DNA of 64,000 nt from Owenweeksia hongkongensis DSM 17368. Its GTDB lineage: Bacteria > Bacteroidota > Bacteroidia > Flavobacteriales > Schleiferiaceae. Location of the stretch: the NCBI RefSeq assembly GCF_000236705.1, contig NC_016599.1, forward strand, positions 3,720,001-3,784,000, written 5' to 3'. A program made the translations under genes and the position numbers. The notes under the pieces are model-generated. The model had not been told where the DNA came from, did not search any database, and worked only from the letters and a program-made list of their open reading frames with translations. Within the stretch, counting starts at the first letter, position 1. The number at the start of each line of letters is the position of its first letter. Of this stretch, positions 19,622-24,747 are shown piece by piece.

Positions 19622-20320
19622 ATGACCACCAAGTACCATCATCTGTTTTTTGATCTCGATCATACCCTTTGGGATTTTGAGGCAAACTCAAGACTTACTC
19701 TCTTGGATTTGTTTGTCAAGCATAACCTTGAGCAGCAGCTAAAAACAGAGTATGAAGATTTTTATAAATCATACATAAAAGTAAATGATGGAAAGTGGGC
19801 GCTTTACCGTAAGGGTGGAATAACAAAAGAGGAACTACGTTTGGAACGCTTTCGCGATACTTTTTCCACATTTGGTTATGTGGATAATGAGTTTGCGGCA
19901 GTTTTTGAAAGTGAATATCTGAGTATTTGTCCTCACAAAACGCAGTTATTACCGGGAACAGAGGAACTTCTTGAATATTTACAGAATCGCTATGAACTGC
20001 ATGTGATTACTAATGGCTTCTTAGAGACGCAAAAAATAAAAATGAAGAAGAGTGGTTTGGAACTTTTCTTTCAAAGCATGATTTCGTCTGAAGAAATAGG
20101 AGTGAATAAACCAGCTCCACAGATTTTTGAAAAATCATTGAAACGTACTGGTGCTGACTCTAAAACTTCATTGATGATTGGCGATAGCCTTCATGCGGAT
20201 ATTTTGGGAGCCCAGAGTTTTGGAATGGATCAGGTGTTTTATAATCCTTTAAAACTGAAACATAACGAGCGTCCTACTTTTGAGGTTTCTCACCTTTTGG
20301 AGATGAAGAATTTTCTTTGA
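19622..20320 (+). CDS. HAD-family pyrimidine 5'-nucleotidase, YjjG-like
   Basis: From ATG 19622 the protein has 232 residues and begins TTKYHHLFFDLDHTLWDFEAN, the YjjG-type HAD motif 1 with nucleophile D11 and acid/base D13. Motif 2 is VITNG, motif 3 a Lys in EIGVNKPAPQIFE, and motif 4 GDSLHADILGA. YjjG enzymes dephosphorylate non-canonical pyrimidine nucleotides. An in-frame start at 19601 overlaps the upstream gene by 16 nt and lacks family support. The last 47 nt overlap the tail of a convergent minus-strand gene. Confidence 0.85.
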   Translation: MTTKYHHLFFDLDHTLWDFEANSRLTLLDLFVKHNLEQQLKTEYEDFYKSYIKVNDGKWALYRKGGITKEELRLERFRDTFSTFGYVDNEFAAVFESEYLSICPHKTQLLPGTEELLEYLQNRYELHVITNGFLETQKIKMKKSGLELFFQSMISSEEIGVNKPAPQIFEKSLKRTGADSKTSLMIGDSLHADILGAQSFGMDQVFYNPLKLKHNERPTFEVSHLLEMKNFL

Positions 20321-20687
20321 TTTCCCAATAACGGAATACGCGATAATTCCACTGGTTACCAACTCTGTCCCCCGTTAGCTCCATCCTTATTTTGTCACCC
20401 GCTTTTACACCTGGCAATTTTGGATCACCGTTAGTTGGCTTTGTGCCAAATTGAAACGAGCAGAGGATTTCAATTTCATTGATCTCAAAATTAGCCTTTG
20501 CTGTGTCTGCCTTGGTAACTTTTAGCAAAACAATATTATCTGCACCCTCAAATACACTTATTACTTCACCTGTTGCGTTTATTGGTTTTAGCTGTACCAC
20601 TTTTCCCTCGCTTTGTGCAAATGCGGAAACTGAAATTAGGCAAGTCCAAAGAAGTGAAATAAAAAGTTTTGAAGTCACGTGTGTCAT
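20274..20687 (-). CDS. Small secreted protein, unknown function
   Basis: A 137-residue product with a signal peptide (about 1-24, ISVSAFAQ) and a beta-rich mature part (GEVISVFEGADNIVLLKVTKA, GVKAGDKIRMELTGDR) that could be an OB-fold-like barrel. The C-terminus is Lys/Ser/Glu-rich. It is convergent with the YjjG-like gene and their coding ends overlap by 47 nt; the unusual overlap means that the last residues of both proteins are constrained by each other or free to vary. I do not recognise a family. Confidence 0.65.
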   Translation of the reverse strand: MTHVTSKLFISLLWTCLISVSAFAQSEGKVVQLKPINATGEVISVFEGADNIVLLKVTKADTAKANFEINEIEILCSFQFGTKPTNGDPKLPGVKAGDKIRMELTGDRVGNQWNYRVFRYWEIKENSSSPKGEKPQK

Positions 20688-20783: not shown

Positions 20784-21650
20784 ATGAGTCTACTCATGAA
20801 AAACATCCTCTACATAGTGTTGACACTCACAATTTTTGCATGCACAAAGCATGAAATTGAGGAAGTGTCAGGCAACCAGGCACCAGGCGAAATACTAGTA
20901 ACCCAGGCCATGAAGGATGCCTATATCAACCGTCTTTATATTTCCCTTACGGGAAGAAAACCGACCAGCGCAGAGTTTAGCCTAGCACGAAAAGGTCTGG
21001 GTAATTTGGCCGGCACTCCCGCCAGAGGGGTGGTAATTGATCAGATATTTTCTAAAGAAGATTATACTATCCGATTGTATGATATTGCTCGGGGAGATTA
21101 TCTCGAATCTTTAGATACTGCCCTGATTCGCTCAGATTATCAGCAGGTAATTAATGCTTTACAAACGGCTACTGGTCCTGCTCGTGAGTACTATCTGCAT
21201 GCTGAAAGAGTGCTGAAAGCTATGCTTGAGATACCGGCTGGTTTGCTTGATGAAACAATAAATATTACTGAAATGTATCGCAGAGTAGTAGATAACATAT
21301 ACTACGATGATATAAATATGGGAAGCGAAAACTATGTGGTGGCCACTTTTCAAAACTTCTTATTTAGATACCCCACTAACGTGGAGTTAGAAAATGGAAC
21401 AAATATGGTGGATGGAACACCCTCTTCCTTGTTTTTGAAAGCAGGTAACTCCAAGCAGGATTTTATAGATATATTTTTTGATAGTGATGACTATGCCGAA
21501 GGTTTGGTTATAAACCTTTATCGAAAGTATTTATTTAGAGAGCCCACCACTACCGAGATGTTCATCGATACGGATTTGTTTATTGCCAATGGTGACTATC
21601 GTGAATTACAAAAAAAGATTTTGACAAGTGATGAATACTTCTTCAATTAA
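20784..21650 (+). CDS. Lipoprotein with DUF1549-like N-terminus and DUF4214-like repeats
   Basis: A 288-residue lipoprotein (lipobox TLTIFAC followed by TKHEIEE; ATG 20796 is an alternative start). AYINRLYISLTGRKPTSAEF (about 46-65) resembles the start of DUF1549, a domain of large Planctomycete surface proteins. Similar units recur: FQNFLFRYPTNVELENG (about 190-206) and INLYRKYLFREPTTTEMF (about 241-258) followed by ILTSDEYFF. The unit LY..LF.R.PT..E ... S.DEY is also close to DUF4214. It is first in a tightly packed five-gene operon with a Tat-exported DUF1501-like protein and a cytochrome-like lipoprotein. Function unknown. Confidence 0.75.
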   Translation: MSLLMKNILYIVLTLTIFACTKHEIEEVSGNQAPGEILVTQAMKDAYINRLYISLTGRKPTSAEFSLARKGLGNLAGTPARGVVIDQIFSKEDYTIRLYDIARGDYLESLDTALIRSDYQQVINALQTATGPAREYYLHAERVLKAMLEIPAGLLDETINITEMYRRVVDNIYYDDINMGSENYVVATFQNFLFRYPTNVELENGTNMVDGTPSSLFLKAGNSKQDFIDIFFDSDDYAEGLVINLYRKYLFREPTTTEMFIDTDLFIANGDYRELQKKILTSDEYFFN

Positions 21651-22125
21651 AATATTTGCCATAGCGATAACCATTGCGTTTGGGGTTTCCTGCAAAAGGG
21701 AAGTTACAAAGCAATATGCTATTGATGAAGTTGAGTTGTATACCAGCGCCAGCGAGAAGAAAAACTTGAAAACTGACGAACAGTTTATTTCTATTCTTTA
21801 CAGCGATTTATTTGGAACAGCCATCACAAATACAAAGCTTCAAGAGCTAAATCAGGCCTATACCTCAATGGGTGATAAATTTTTGATTATTGATATTCTT
21901 ATAAAAAGCATGCTGGCTGATCCTGCAGCTCAGGTGCCAACAAAGGCAGCTATGGATGCTCAACCGGAAAGCTTTGTAGAAACTGCATATAAAACACTTT
22001 TGGTACGAAACCCAACAAAACAAGAGGAGTGGTTTTTAGTAAATCAGATTGAAAAAAATAAGACTTTGGAGCCGATCGATATTTATTACGCTATACTTAC
22101 TAGCGATGAGTATCGATACTACTAA
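21631..22125 (+). CDS. Second repeat lipoprotein of the DUF1501-like operon
   Basis: From ATG 21631 (164 residues; a GTG one codon earlier is less likely) the product has a lipobox AFGVSC followed by KREVTKQ. It carries two shorter copies of the unit seen in the upstream protein: FISILYSDLFGTAITNTKLQEL (spread over about 50-72) and FVETAYKTLLVRNPTKQEEW ending ILTSDEYRYY at the C-terminus. The end is nearly the same as the upstream protein's end (ILTSDEYFFN), so the two are probably related by duplication. The genes overlap by 20 nt in different frames. Likely a partner in one envelope complex. Confidence 0.75.
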   Translation: MNTSSIKIFAIAITIAFGVSCKREVTKQYAIDEVELYTSASEKKNLKTDEQFISILYSDLFGTAITNTKLQELNQAYTSMGDKFLIIDILIKSMLADPAAQVPTKAAMDAQPESFVETAYKTLLVRNPTKQEEWFLVNQIEKNKTLEPIDIYYAILTSDEYRYY

Positions 22126-22136
22126 TATGTATTAAT

Positions 22137-23435
22137 ATGAAAAGGAGGGAGTTTATTAGAAAAACGGGTATGGCAGCGGGAGCCATGGTTTTGCCATATG
22201 TGCTACCAGGCGGAAGCTTGTTTGCTCCTACTGGTTCTCGAAAGGCAAATCATGTGGTGTTTTGCATGTTTGCCGGTGGTGTACGTAATCTCGAAAGTGT
22301 ACACAAAAATGACGGAAACCTAATGCCTTCTATGCTGAATGGGAATGAAAGTATCAGTAGCGATATAGTTTCCTCAATGAGTGCTTTGCCTTCACCAGCT
22401 GTTAGTTCTCCATTGCAAAATTTTGGAACTCTTTATAAGGAATTTCGCTATGACCAAGGACCAACAGGGCACTTTAATGGTCACACCACCGCTATTACCG
22501 GGCAGTACACCAATAGTAGTTTGAGCTTGCTCGAAAGGCCATCGTATCCCACTGTTTTTGAACTTTATCGTAAGCATAATACGCCTAGTATGTCTGCTTT
22601 AAATTCGTGGTGGATCACACATACCAACAATTTATACCCCATTCTAAATTATAGTAACTACGCGGGCTATGGACCCACTTATGGTGCTAATCAGCTTTCG
22701 CCAAACGATTTATTTAGTAGTAGGACAGTTCCCAATTTGATTAATAAAAATAATTTTTCAGGAAATAATAAGGAGCTACAAGATGATATCAGGAAGTTTA
22801 TGAATAACAACTTTGGTGGCGGTCTTAATGCTTCTGCAGGAATGAAAAATGATACAGAGGATGCTGAAAAAATTGAAAACTGGATAGATAAAGTTCTGCA
22901 GGATATTTCTTCAGGGAGTCTCAATAATCCTTGGAATATACCATCCTATATGAATGGTGATATGTACAATATCTATTTTGCGGAAGAAGTGCTTAAGCAG
23001 TTTCAGCCCGAGCTTTTAGTGGTAAACATGTTTGGTGTAGATACTTGCCATACTGACTTTTCTGGATATTGTAATGCCATGCGAAGGGCAGATTGGGCGG
23101 TAGGACATTTATGGGATACCATTCAAAATACCCCAGGTTTGGCCAATGATACAGTTTTGATAGTTGCGCCAGAAATTGGGAGAAATGGTACACCAAACTC
23201 CATTGTAGATGCTAATGGTCGCCCAGCTTTAGATCACACAAATAGCGATCCTATGTCAAAAGAAATATTTTGTTTAGTAGCTGGTCCTCCATCAGTGGTA
23301 AACCAAGGGAAAGTAATAAGCCAAGAGGCTGGCCGAAGTATTGACATCGTTCCAACAATTGCCAATATTTTGGGCTTTGATAGTGAAATTCCAGGGCTAC
23401 TTCCCGGTAATGTATTACATGACGCTTTTATATGA
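22137..23435 (+). CDS. Tat-exported DUF1501-like protein (alkaline-phosphatase/sulfatase fold)
   Basis: The product starts KRREFIRKTGMAAGAMVLPYV, a twin-arginine signal with the RRxF core, and no cysteine lipobox. The 432-residue protein has VVFCMFAGGVRN near the mature start, NGHTTAITGQYTN, a central NMFGVDTCHTDFSGY segment (about 295-310) and APEIGRNGTPNS...ALDHTN (about 345-370), the layout of DUF1501 proteins, which are related to sulfatases and phosphatases. DUF1501 genes usually stand next to DUF1549/DUF1553 or DUF1800 genes; here the partner is a DUF1549-like lipoprotein. Twelve nucleotides separate it from the gene upstream and its stop overlaps the next start. Confidence 0.8.
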   Translation: MKRREFIRKTGMAAGAMVLPYVLPGGSLFAPTGSRKANHVVFCMFAGGVRNLESVHKNDGNLMPSMLNGNESISSDIVSSMSALPSPAVSSPLQNFGTLYKEFRYDQGPTGHFNGHTTAITGQYTNSSLSLLERPSYPTVFELYRKHNTPSMSALNSWWITHTNNLYPILNYSNYAGYGPTYGANQLSPNDLFSSRTVPNLINKNNFSGNNKELQDDIRKFMNNNFGGGLNASAGMKNDTEDAEKIENWIDKVLQDISSGSLNNPWNIPSYMNGDMYNIYFAEEVLKQFQPELLVVNMFGVDTCHTDFSGYCNAMRRADWAVGHLWDTIQNTPGLANDTVLIVAPEIGRNGTPNSIVDANGRPALDHTNSDPMSKEIFCLVAGPPSVVNQGKVISQEAGRSIDIVPTIANILGFDSEIPGLLPGNVLHDAFI

Positions 23436-24316
23436 TGAAATTCAGAAACATAGTCGGATTAGGCGTTTTGTTGATATTGCTATTTGCTTGTGAGCATAAA
23501 CGAGATGAGAGCGAAAATCCATTTGATGTAAATGAAGAAGTGGATACAAGCAAGGTGAAGCTGAAAGATGCTACCATTGAAGGTTTGCACCAGAATGTGT
23601 TTTCTGTACGGTGTGCCAATCCAACTTGCCATGACGGTAGTTTTGAACCAGACTTTAGAACTGTACAAAGCACTTATTCGTCATTGGTGTATCATCCTGT
23701 TACCAAAAATGATGATCAAGGGAGTTTTACTTACCGAGTAGTTCCCGGCAATGCCGATGAAAGTTGGATAATGCGTAGGGTGACTGTAGAAGATGTATTA
23801 GGTAGAATGCCTCTTTATGCAGAGCCGCTAACTACTCAGGAAATCGAGGCTCTGAAATATTGGATAAATGATGGAGCTAGGGATATGCAGGGTAATTTAC
23901 CTGATTTGCCCAATGTGCAGCCTGCGGTTCACGGTTATCAAATTCAGGATTTACAACAAAACCGTGTGGATACTATTCGTGTAAATGGATGGGGATCTGC
24001 AGTGATTTTACAAGCCAACACGGATTATGATTACTACTTCTACATTACTGATGATAATACGCTGACCGAAAATTTGCAGAACCAAAAAATAGAGTTTAGC
24101 TACGACCGTGATAACTGGACACCCTTTCATCAAATTACTCCTACCAAGCTTTGGACAGATATTACAAAAGCCACATTTAATACATCAGCGTTTCAGGCCA
24201 ACACAACAGTTTATCTTCGCTATTTTGTGGAAGATGATCAGGGTGGAAAAACAGAAACTCCGGAAGACGGAAGTCCATATTGGCTAAAAGATAACTACTC
24301 AATAATTGTGCAATGA
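23432..24316 (+). CDS. Cytochrome-like lipoprotein with CxxxxCH motif
   Basis: A 294-residue lipoprotein (lipobox LLILLFAC followed by EHKRDESEN). The N-terminal domain has RCANPTCHDG (about 65-74), in which two Cys are separated by four residues, then VVPGNADESWIMRR and RMPLYAEPLTTQEIEALKYWINDGAR (about 130-155). This is the layout of planctomycete-type c cytochromes (PSCyt), with a possible Met ligand in RMP, but with CxxxxCH instead of CxxCH. The C-terminal half is beta-rich. Overlaps its neighbours on both sides by 4 nt. Heme attachment is possible but unproven. Confidence 0.75.
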   Translation: MMKFRNIVGLGVLLILLFACEHKRDESENPFDVNEEVDTSKVKLKDATIEGLHQNVFSVRCANPTCHDGSFEPDFRTVQSTYSSLVYHPVTKNDDQGSFTYRVVPGNADESWIMRRVTVEDVLGRMPLYAEPLTTQEIEALKYWINDGARDMQGNLPDLPNVQPAVHGYQIQDLQQNRVDTIRVNGWGSAVILQANTDYDYYFYITDDNTLTENLQNQKIEFSYDRDNWTPFHQITPTKLWTDITKATFNTSAFQANTTVYLRYFVEDDQGGKTETPEDGSPYWLKDNYSIIVQ

Positions 24317-24747
24317 GAGGGCTATTTATAATTATAGTATTCAGCAGTTTATTCTCATGTAGCAAGGACGAGGATCAACTAAGCGAGGTGCCTTCTTTAG
24401 AACTTATTTCTATCGGCCCAAATAGTGTGGTGCAGTTTGAAGATTCTGTAGTTATCCGATTGGCTTACGAAGATGGTGATGGCGACCTGGGTGGTTTTCC
24501 TGCTGATAGCGTAAACTTATTTGTGGTGGATAACCGCAATGGTGTTCCTTTTGAATTTAGGATTCAGGAACTGGTGCCTGGAGGTGCTGAGGTTCCAATC
24601 AAGGGCACCTTGAGTATTACTTTGCAAAACCTATTTCTTACGGGCAATGGTTCTCAGGAAAACGCCACCTTTAATATCTACGCTTACGATCGAGCTGGAA
24701 ATAAAAGCAATGTGGTGAAGACTCCGGGGGTTACCGTGCTCGAGTAA
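24313..24747 (+). CDS. Small lipoprotein, last gene of the DUF1501-like operon
   Basis: A 144-residue lipoprotein: FSSLFSC followed by SKDEDQ, where the KDED after Cys resembles the acidic lipoprotein export signals used for surface display in Bacteroidota. The mature part has an Ig-like beta pattern: VVIRLAYEDGDGDLGGFPADSV and ATFNIYAYDRAGNKS. The EDGDGDLG segment could bind calcium. Four-nt overlap with the cytochrome-like gene ties it to the operon. Probably a surface-exposed accessory protein; function unknown. Confidence 0.75.
   Translation: MRGLFIIIVFSSLFSCSKDEDQLSEVPSLELISIGPNSVVQFEDSVVIRLAYEDGDGDLGGFPADSVNLFVVDNRNGVPFEFRIQELVPGGAEVPIKGTLSITLQNLFLTGNGSQENATFNIYAYDRAGNKSNVVKTPGVTVLE

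Follow-up and report, generated by a model that had tools for sequence, protein, structure and literature searches.

A Conserved Five-Gene Module of Owenweeksia hongkongensis with a DUF1501-Related Protein of the Alkaline Phosphatase Superfamily and a Monoheme Cytochrome

Overview of the Module

Five genes of Owenweeksia hongkongensis DSM 17368, named A to E, were found to form a set that is conserved in content and order. The genes occupy positions 20796–24747 of the window, the whole 64,000-nucleotide stretch of DNA that was analyzed (positions 3,720,001–3,784,000 of contig NC_016599.1; the genome is one contig of 4,000,057 bases), and the five open reading frames were confirmed at this place. 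The conservation of the set as one functional module is held with much more confidence than the full explanation of its role proposed below. The module is divided into two clades, the five-gene type of the window and a paralogous six-gene type with a type IX-secreted CUB/CHU_C protein. The assignment of protein C to the alkaline phosphatase superfamily fold, with a relationship to DUF1501 proteins along its whole length, is supported. The His and Gly substitutions in C, the CX4CH motif of D, and the two module clades are new here. No article on the five-gene set was found in the parts of the literature that the searches reached.

Conservation and Distribution

The five genes overlap or lie 11 nucleotides apart (A–B −20, B–C +11, C–D −4, and D–E −4 nucleotides; negative values are overlaps), and the tight packing described in the first-pass annotation, which was made from the sequence of the window, was confirmed. 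Loci carrying gene C were checked by tblastn. L047 and L048, two distant relatives in which the other four genes were missing, were excluded, leaving 69 loci, 64 of them distinct (five pairs had the same or near-identical DNA). All five genes were present in 66 of the 69 loci, on one strand and in identical order in 66/66. The gene order is not unique to this genome, and the recurrence in distant genera that the annotation had named as support was found. The incomplete sets were L006 and L132, where A and E, respectively, ran off the contig end, and L010. The last contained C and D only; its 17.9 kb of locus DNA yielded no A, B, or E.

One scan of the genome contigs gave 10 loci. In the search at the level of the order, 35 of 196 genomes had any match and 24 had a full-length C; A and D were present in all 24. 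Beyond these, A was found in two more genomes and D in one more (G099), in which A and D were on two different contigs. Two C rows were present in 24 genomes; D was searched for in 22 of these, and two D copies were found in 22/22. A chance neighborhood was ruled out by the conserved order and the equal copy numbers.

The frequency of C differed strongly between samples. In the class-level sample, C was present in 93 of 395 Bacteroidia genomes (56 of 197 genera), whereas a differently drawn phylum-level sample had a match at E 1e-10 in 31/395 genomes and a full-length C in 2/395. The frequency therefore depends on sampling, and its true value is uncertain. A genome of the same genus (G178, 98% complete) had no C, so the distribution is patchy. 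In-frame stops were observed in C and A of L046 (G026) and in D of L151 (G603), suggesting decaying copies or sequencing errors.

Two Clades of the Module

A sixth gene was located 3′ of E, on the same strand and 0–279 nucleotides away, in 23 loci (L037–L046, L099, L138–L147, L149, and L150). Its product contains a CUB domain and is mostly 1,145–1,360 amino acids long. Two full-length sixth proteins were scanned; both had CUB, PKD-type, and CHU_C (type IX secretion) domains, with CHU_C at the end, and one also had a MAM domain. A third was cut by the contig end, and CUB was detected in it. The sixth gene was absent from the window and from 25 loci with sufficient downstream DNA, and 21 loci could not be judged.

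The tree of C was built by a quick method from 70 rows, 65 of them different, with the label "no sixth gene" assigned to the window by hand. The six-gene loci formed a single clade of 24 rows with a Shimodaira–Hasegawa-like approximate likelihood ratio test (SH-aLRT) value of 100, and 23 of the 24 had the sixth gene. The label required two changes on the tree against a mean of 16.6 after shuffling, and none of 500 shuffles was as low. In each of five genomes for which both loci were examined (G011, G053, G553, G603, and G729), one copy of each type was present.

Two loci of the six-gene type were unusual. In the exception, L148, no sixth gene was found, and the C read departed from the usual G-H-(F/Y) pattern. 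In L045, the six-gene copy of G053, two genes of 456 and 350 amino acids were located between A (13138–12215) and B (9758–9279).

Fold and Active Site of Protein C

Gene C (22137–23435, plus strand) encodes a protein with a Tat-type (twin-arginine translocation) signal. The N-terminus is MKRREF, and the match to TAT_signal_seq was sub-threshold at 14.3 bits against 16.7. The structure of C was predicted from 10 sequences, with a predicted local distance difference test score (pLDDT) of 63 and a predicted template modeling score (pTM) of 0.75. Structure matches for A and C were searched in the PDB only, so that a lack of other folds among them carries no weight. The C model gave 277 Foldseek matches at E ≤ 0.001, in the alkaline phosphatase superfamily. 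The best fold match was PafA, with Z 20.0 and a root-mean-square deviation (rmsd) of 4.1 over 301 residues, followed by sulfatases with Z of about 18–19.

In Pfam, the C protein of the window had only a sub-threshold Phosphodiest match and, alone, none to DUF1501; the genome of the window likewise had no match to DUF1501 (PF07394) at the cut-off of 27 bits. Members of the C family, taken at E up to 1, matched Phosphodiest in 13/28, Sulfatase in 11/28, and DUF1501 in 5/28, the best DUF1501 match being 2.2e-4. By hhalign, the C family was aligned with 17 Bacteroidota DUF1501 proteins at E 1.6e-5 over 371 columns, co-linear from end to end. As controls, 13 families of flanking genes gave 0.064 or worse, and a family taken by eye for iPGM, a member of the superfamily, gave 4e-4. 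The earlier description of C as DUF1501-like thus held at the family level and not for the C of the window alone.

The active site was compared with that of distant relatives of the Asp/Thr type from the same phylum. From 28 distant relatives (L051–L078), 12 without a frame longer than 250 amino acids and one that had been misread (L054) were left out, and 15 were used. At position 47, Gly replaced the metal Asp in 28/28 C proteins and in none of the 15 relatives. At position 112, where all 15 relatives had the nucleophile Thr/Ser, His was found in 28/28 C proteins and in 0/15 relatives. Glu replaced Asp at position 346 in 27/28 C proteins and, again, in no relative. D302, H305, and H367 were retained in both groups. 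D366 was invariant among the C proteins and varied among the relatives. In the wider C set, the pattern G-H-(F/Y)-x-(G/A)...(T/Q)G was found in 68/69 and RR-x-F in 65/69. An ordinary phosphatase or sulfatase was rejected as an identification of C because the nucleophile is replaced.

The DUF1501 proteins were compared at the same positions. All 17 had Gly at the equivalent of position 47, equivalents of D302, H305, D366, and H367, and Glu at that of 346 (in E-x-G-R). The spacing H-x8-(T/S/N)G was present in 17/17 DUF1501 proteins and in 27/28 C proteins; the 28th (L045) had the His with QG. Since both MAFFT and hhalign placed the DUF1501 His outside the H112 column, the proposed sharing of the His is drawn from the motif and not from automatic alignment. 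DUF1501 proteins share the Gly substitution of C and, judging from this spacing, probably the His substitution.

With the nucleophile Thr/Ser and the metal Asp replaced in every C protein examined, C may be a non-catalytic pseudo-enzyme with a binding or structural role, in a module that displays or anchors other proteins at the surface, for example the CUB/CHU_C protein of the six-gene loci. The presence of that protein after E in 23 of 24 members of one clade and the linker-like fold of A (below) are consistent with this explanation. A pure scaffold, however, would have no need of D302, H305, E346 (27/28), D366, and H367, which are conserved, and in the window's clade no CUB/CHU_C gene was seen next to the module (24 loci with enough downstream DNA, plus the window). 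This explanation is considered possible but unlikely.

Linker-Like Lipoproteins A and B

In the window, the four proteins other than C each fit the pattern of a hydrophobic stretch closed by a lipobox Cys, and the earlier count of four lipoproteins and one Tat substrate agreed with this. Gene A (20796–21650, plus strand) has an alternative start at 20784; the ATG at 20796 (MKNILY...) is more likely. Gene B occupies 21631–22125 on the same strand.

For B, DUF4214 (PF13946) scored 25.3 bits for the whole protein over two stretches, above the cut-off of 23.2; its highest-scoring single stretch in the six-frame search reached 16.0, under the cut-off. The A of the window scored 15.9 bits against DUF4214, below the cut-off, had no DUF1549 match, and did not reach the curated cut-offs of PSCyt2 (DUF1549) and PSD1 (DUF1553). 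At E up to 1, A members matched DUF4214 in 22/26 (best 8.5e-9), PBS_linker in 8/26 (best 2.5e-7), PSD1 in 8/26 (best 2.9e-4), and PSCyt2 in 2/26 (best 0.0046). Among PDB sequences, the A profile also matched a protein of the phycobilisome (9.1e-5). The kinship of A and B was indicated by hhalign values of 1.5e-7 and 1.3e-5.

The predicted model of A (9 sequences, pLDDT 87.5) was almost all helical. In the second-look structural comparison (VIA), rows 1–38 were all phycobilisome entries with Z from 9.5 to 6.4, the next row having 5.7; the top row (Z 9.5, rmsd 2.5, 118 residues) falls under the helical Z of about 13 below which a match may reflect a common arrangement. Phycobiliproteins are not known from these bacteria.

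The relationship of A to DUF1549 was suggestive only. The N-terminal repeat of A matched the DUF1549 motif at 2.9e-4 by hhalign, against 0.025 or worse for 14 families of flanking genes. The match of this repeat to the C-terminal R-x-P-x-x-E segment of PSD1 proteins was weak (0.01), and that of B was 0.0055. The only Cys in the A of the window is the lipid Cys, and the PSCyt2 heme motif CXXCH is missing. The first-pass annotation had called these proteins DUF1549-like repeat lipoproteins; this applies at most to the N-terminus of A, where the weak PSCyt2 signal lies, and the CXXCH of 14/14 PSCyt2-PSD1 proteins is absent from A. A relation of A or B to DUF1800 was rejected, as the lists of 12 and 22 families obtained at E up to 1 contained no DUF1800 row. 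For A and B, the description DUF4214/phycobilisome-linker-like fits better than DUF1549-like; a relationship of the lipoproteins to DUF1549/DUF4214, as expected earlier, was found in this form.

Cytochrome D and Lipoprotein E

Gene D (23432–24316, plus strand) encodes a lipoprotein whose monoheme cytochrome c domain carries C61-x4-C66-H67 and M126-P127. The region after this domain resembles, by eye, a beta/Ig-type domain. The D of the window scored 14.2 bits against PSCyt1 (PF07635), below the cut-off of 22, and 24.6 bits against the diheme cytochrome family TIGR03806 of NCBIfam, whose cut-off is 313. A weak PSCyt1 match was found in 2/28 D members. The heme motif CX4CHDG was present in 67/69 and CXXCH in 0/69, and Met-Pro followed the heme motif by 40–75 residues in 68/69. 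The earlier assignment of D as PSCyt-like agreed with these near-invariant motifs and the weak family matches. From its sequence, D appears to be a PSCyt1-like monoheme cytochrome that would be loaded with heme. In the genome of the window, TatC was matched once and Cytochrom_C_asm twice; a stop interrupts the second of the two Cytochrom_C_asm stretches.

These motifs, and a D copy number that tracks that of C, are also consistent with a module that is mainly a redox unit, in which D would exchange electrons with an oxidative reaction and C would bind the substrate. A role of PSCyt proteins in carbohydrate metabolism, proposed in the part of PMC5615132 consulted, points the same way. However, the fold of C is that of hydrolases and transferases, each D has one heme motif, and neither an oxidase nor a multiheme partner was noticed to recur beside the operon. 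A redox unit is considered improbable. A multiheme electron conduit was rejected on account of the single heme motif per D.

Gene E (24313–24747, plus strand) encodes a small lipoprotein that by eye is Ig-like and contains DGDGD. No match to DUF1549/DUF4214/DUF1501/PSCyt-type families was found for E in the Pfam scan. The residues C-S-K-D-E-D of E match the surface lipoprotein export signal described in PMC5080379. The exact pattern C-X-K-(D/E)2 after the lipid Cys was found in 17/27 E proteins, including that of the window.

Comparison with Known Systems

Some Verrucomicrobia and Planctomycetes are rich in DUF1501 and PSCyt/PSD proteins, for which excerpts of PMC5615132 and PMC4452313 give no known function. 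According to the same excerpt of PMC5615132, PSCyt/PSD proteins of Verrucomicrobia lie beside families without known function, their own role is a blank, and they are predicted to be periplasmic or cytoplasmic. The excerpt of PMC4452313 assigns no function to DUF1501 clusters, and that of PMC5122149 assigns none to the DUF1501-DUF1800 pairs found with bacterial chitin synthases.

The pairs of DUF1501 with PSCyt1-PSCyt2-PSD1 in Planctomycetes and Verrucomicrobia resemble the module, as both combine an alkaline phosphatase superfamily-type protein bearing an RR signal with proteins that have helical motifs of the R-x-P-T-x-x-E kind and with a cytochrome of the PSCyt type. In the module, the parts are split into separate lipoproteins, and the small lipoproteins B and E are extra. 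DUF1501-DUF1800 pairs (PMC5122149, seen in part) likewise combine a DUF1501 Tat protein with a conserved partner, but A and B members had no DUF1800 row. Phycobilisome linkers and DUF4214 proteins (PF13946 and PF00427) resemble A and B by profile and A by second-look fold; in contrast to the linkers, A and B look lipid-anchored. C shares the fold and the D302/H305 and H367 positions with the alkaline phosphatase superfamily (PafA, sulfatases, and NPP) and differs in having His112 for Thr/Ser, Gly47 for the metal Asp, and Glu for Asp346.

An undivided form is available for comparison within Bacteroidota, since in 17 of 19 PSCyt2-PSD1 loci the gene directly after PSCyt2-PSD1, on the same strand, had the DUF1501 motifs EFGR and GRDH. 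In the PSCyt2-PSD1 alignment, which covered 14 of the 19 loci, all 14 proteins had CXXCH in the first 200 residues and a second CXXCH each, and none had CX4CH. The module is best classed as a split, lipid-anchored variant and not as a member of PSCyt1, PSCyt2, or PSD1, since its proteins fall short of the cut-offs of these families and lack their heme motifs. In the family searches proposed earlier, only DUF4214 in B passed its cut-off, whereas DUF1549, DUF1501, and PSCyt did not. The idea that a large multidomain protein had been broken into lipoproteins agreed in part with the DUF1501/PSCyt kinship; E without a match and A without heme did not fit it.

The likeness to the planctomycete-type PSCyt/DUF1501 pair could also be convergent, the lipoproteins and the alkaline phosphatase superfamily protein having been assembled independently. 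The profile links of the window's proteins are below the curated cut-offs except for DUF4214 in B, the heme motif of D is different, and the PSCyt2 heme is missing from A, as convergence would allow. Yet three component types recur together, and C and DUF1501 proteins share Gly 47 and Glu 346, against the 15 Asp/Thr-type relatives, and the constant D366-H367. The probability of convergence is considered low.

Proposed Function of the Module

The preferred explanation is that the module is a split, lipid-anchored counterpart of the DUF1501/PSCyt1-PSCyt2-PSD1 systems at the outer membrane; in full, this is considered moderately probable. A and B, with a probable helical phycobilisome-linker/DUF4214 fold, are most likely membrane-anchored scaffolds, and would hold C adjacent to D. 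C would be exported pre-folded by the Tat pathway as a metallo-hydrolase-like protein with His for the nucleophile, binding the substrate at a probably catalytic metal site. D would serve as a single-electron exchange partner. E, through its surface-export signal, may position the complex at or close to the outward-facing side of the outer membrane. The target that the complex then binds and modifies would be a polymer or ester of the envelope or the extracellular space. The complex, its surface location, the loading of metal and heme, and catalysis are predicted from the sequences and models.

Several results weighed against this explanation. The C model was weak (pLDDT 63), and residues 104–114, which contain H112, were below 50, so the position of H112 was not settled by the model. 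No Foldseek match of A reached E ≤ 0.001, the best being phycobilisome proteins at 0.27, and the helical Z of A was in the cautionary range. A and D, aligned as a control, gave 9.6e-5 over 27 columns although no kinship between them is evident; pairwise hhalign values of about 1e-4 are therefore unsafe, including that of A and DUF1549. PSCyt2-PSD1 proteins have two CXXCH each and the module has one heme motif of the CX4CH type, and the window's own proteins did not reach the Pfam cut-offs for DUF1501, PSCyt1, PSCyt2, and PSD1. The exact C-X-K-(D/E)2 pattern was common in E only (A 0/24, B 5/20, and D 3/27; none in the A, B, and D of the window), and the consensus of the export signal differs among Bacteroidetes according to PMC5080379.

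A bolder version would place C and DUF1501 proteins in one branch of the alkaline phosphatase superfamily, with His in the place of the nucleophile and a chemistry of its own. This chemistry would be coupled to a monoheme cytochrome, with a scaffold of the phycobilisome-linker type underneath. The module would then be a widespread, so far undescribed machine at the surface of Bacteroidia; of its two paralogous types, one would serve only a type IX-secreted CUB protein. This version is speculative and rather unlikely to hold as a whole.

The module offers parts similar to those of DUF1501/PSCyt sets as five small separate proteins, each of which can be expressed individually, deleted, and used in pull-downs. 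The His for Thr/Ser in C provides a concrete hypothesis on DUF1501-type chemistry, and the six-gene type links the module to a defined secreted protein.

Flanking Region

The scan for promoters and terminators was at background: promoter-like sites numbered 13, where 12.7 were expected, and terminator-like sites 5, where 3.9 were expected. The flanking families F18, F7, and F13, taken by eye for iPGM, M20 peptidase, and DUF255-like proteins, recurred in some lineages only and were excluded from the module parts. Just upstream of the operon and divergent from it, a small open reading frame with an apparent signal peptide was located on the minus strand at 20274–20687.

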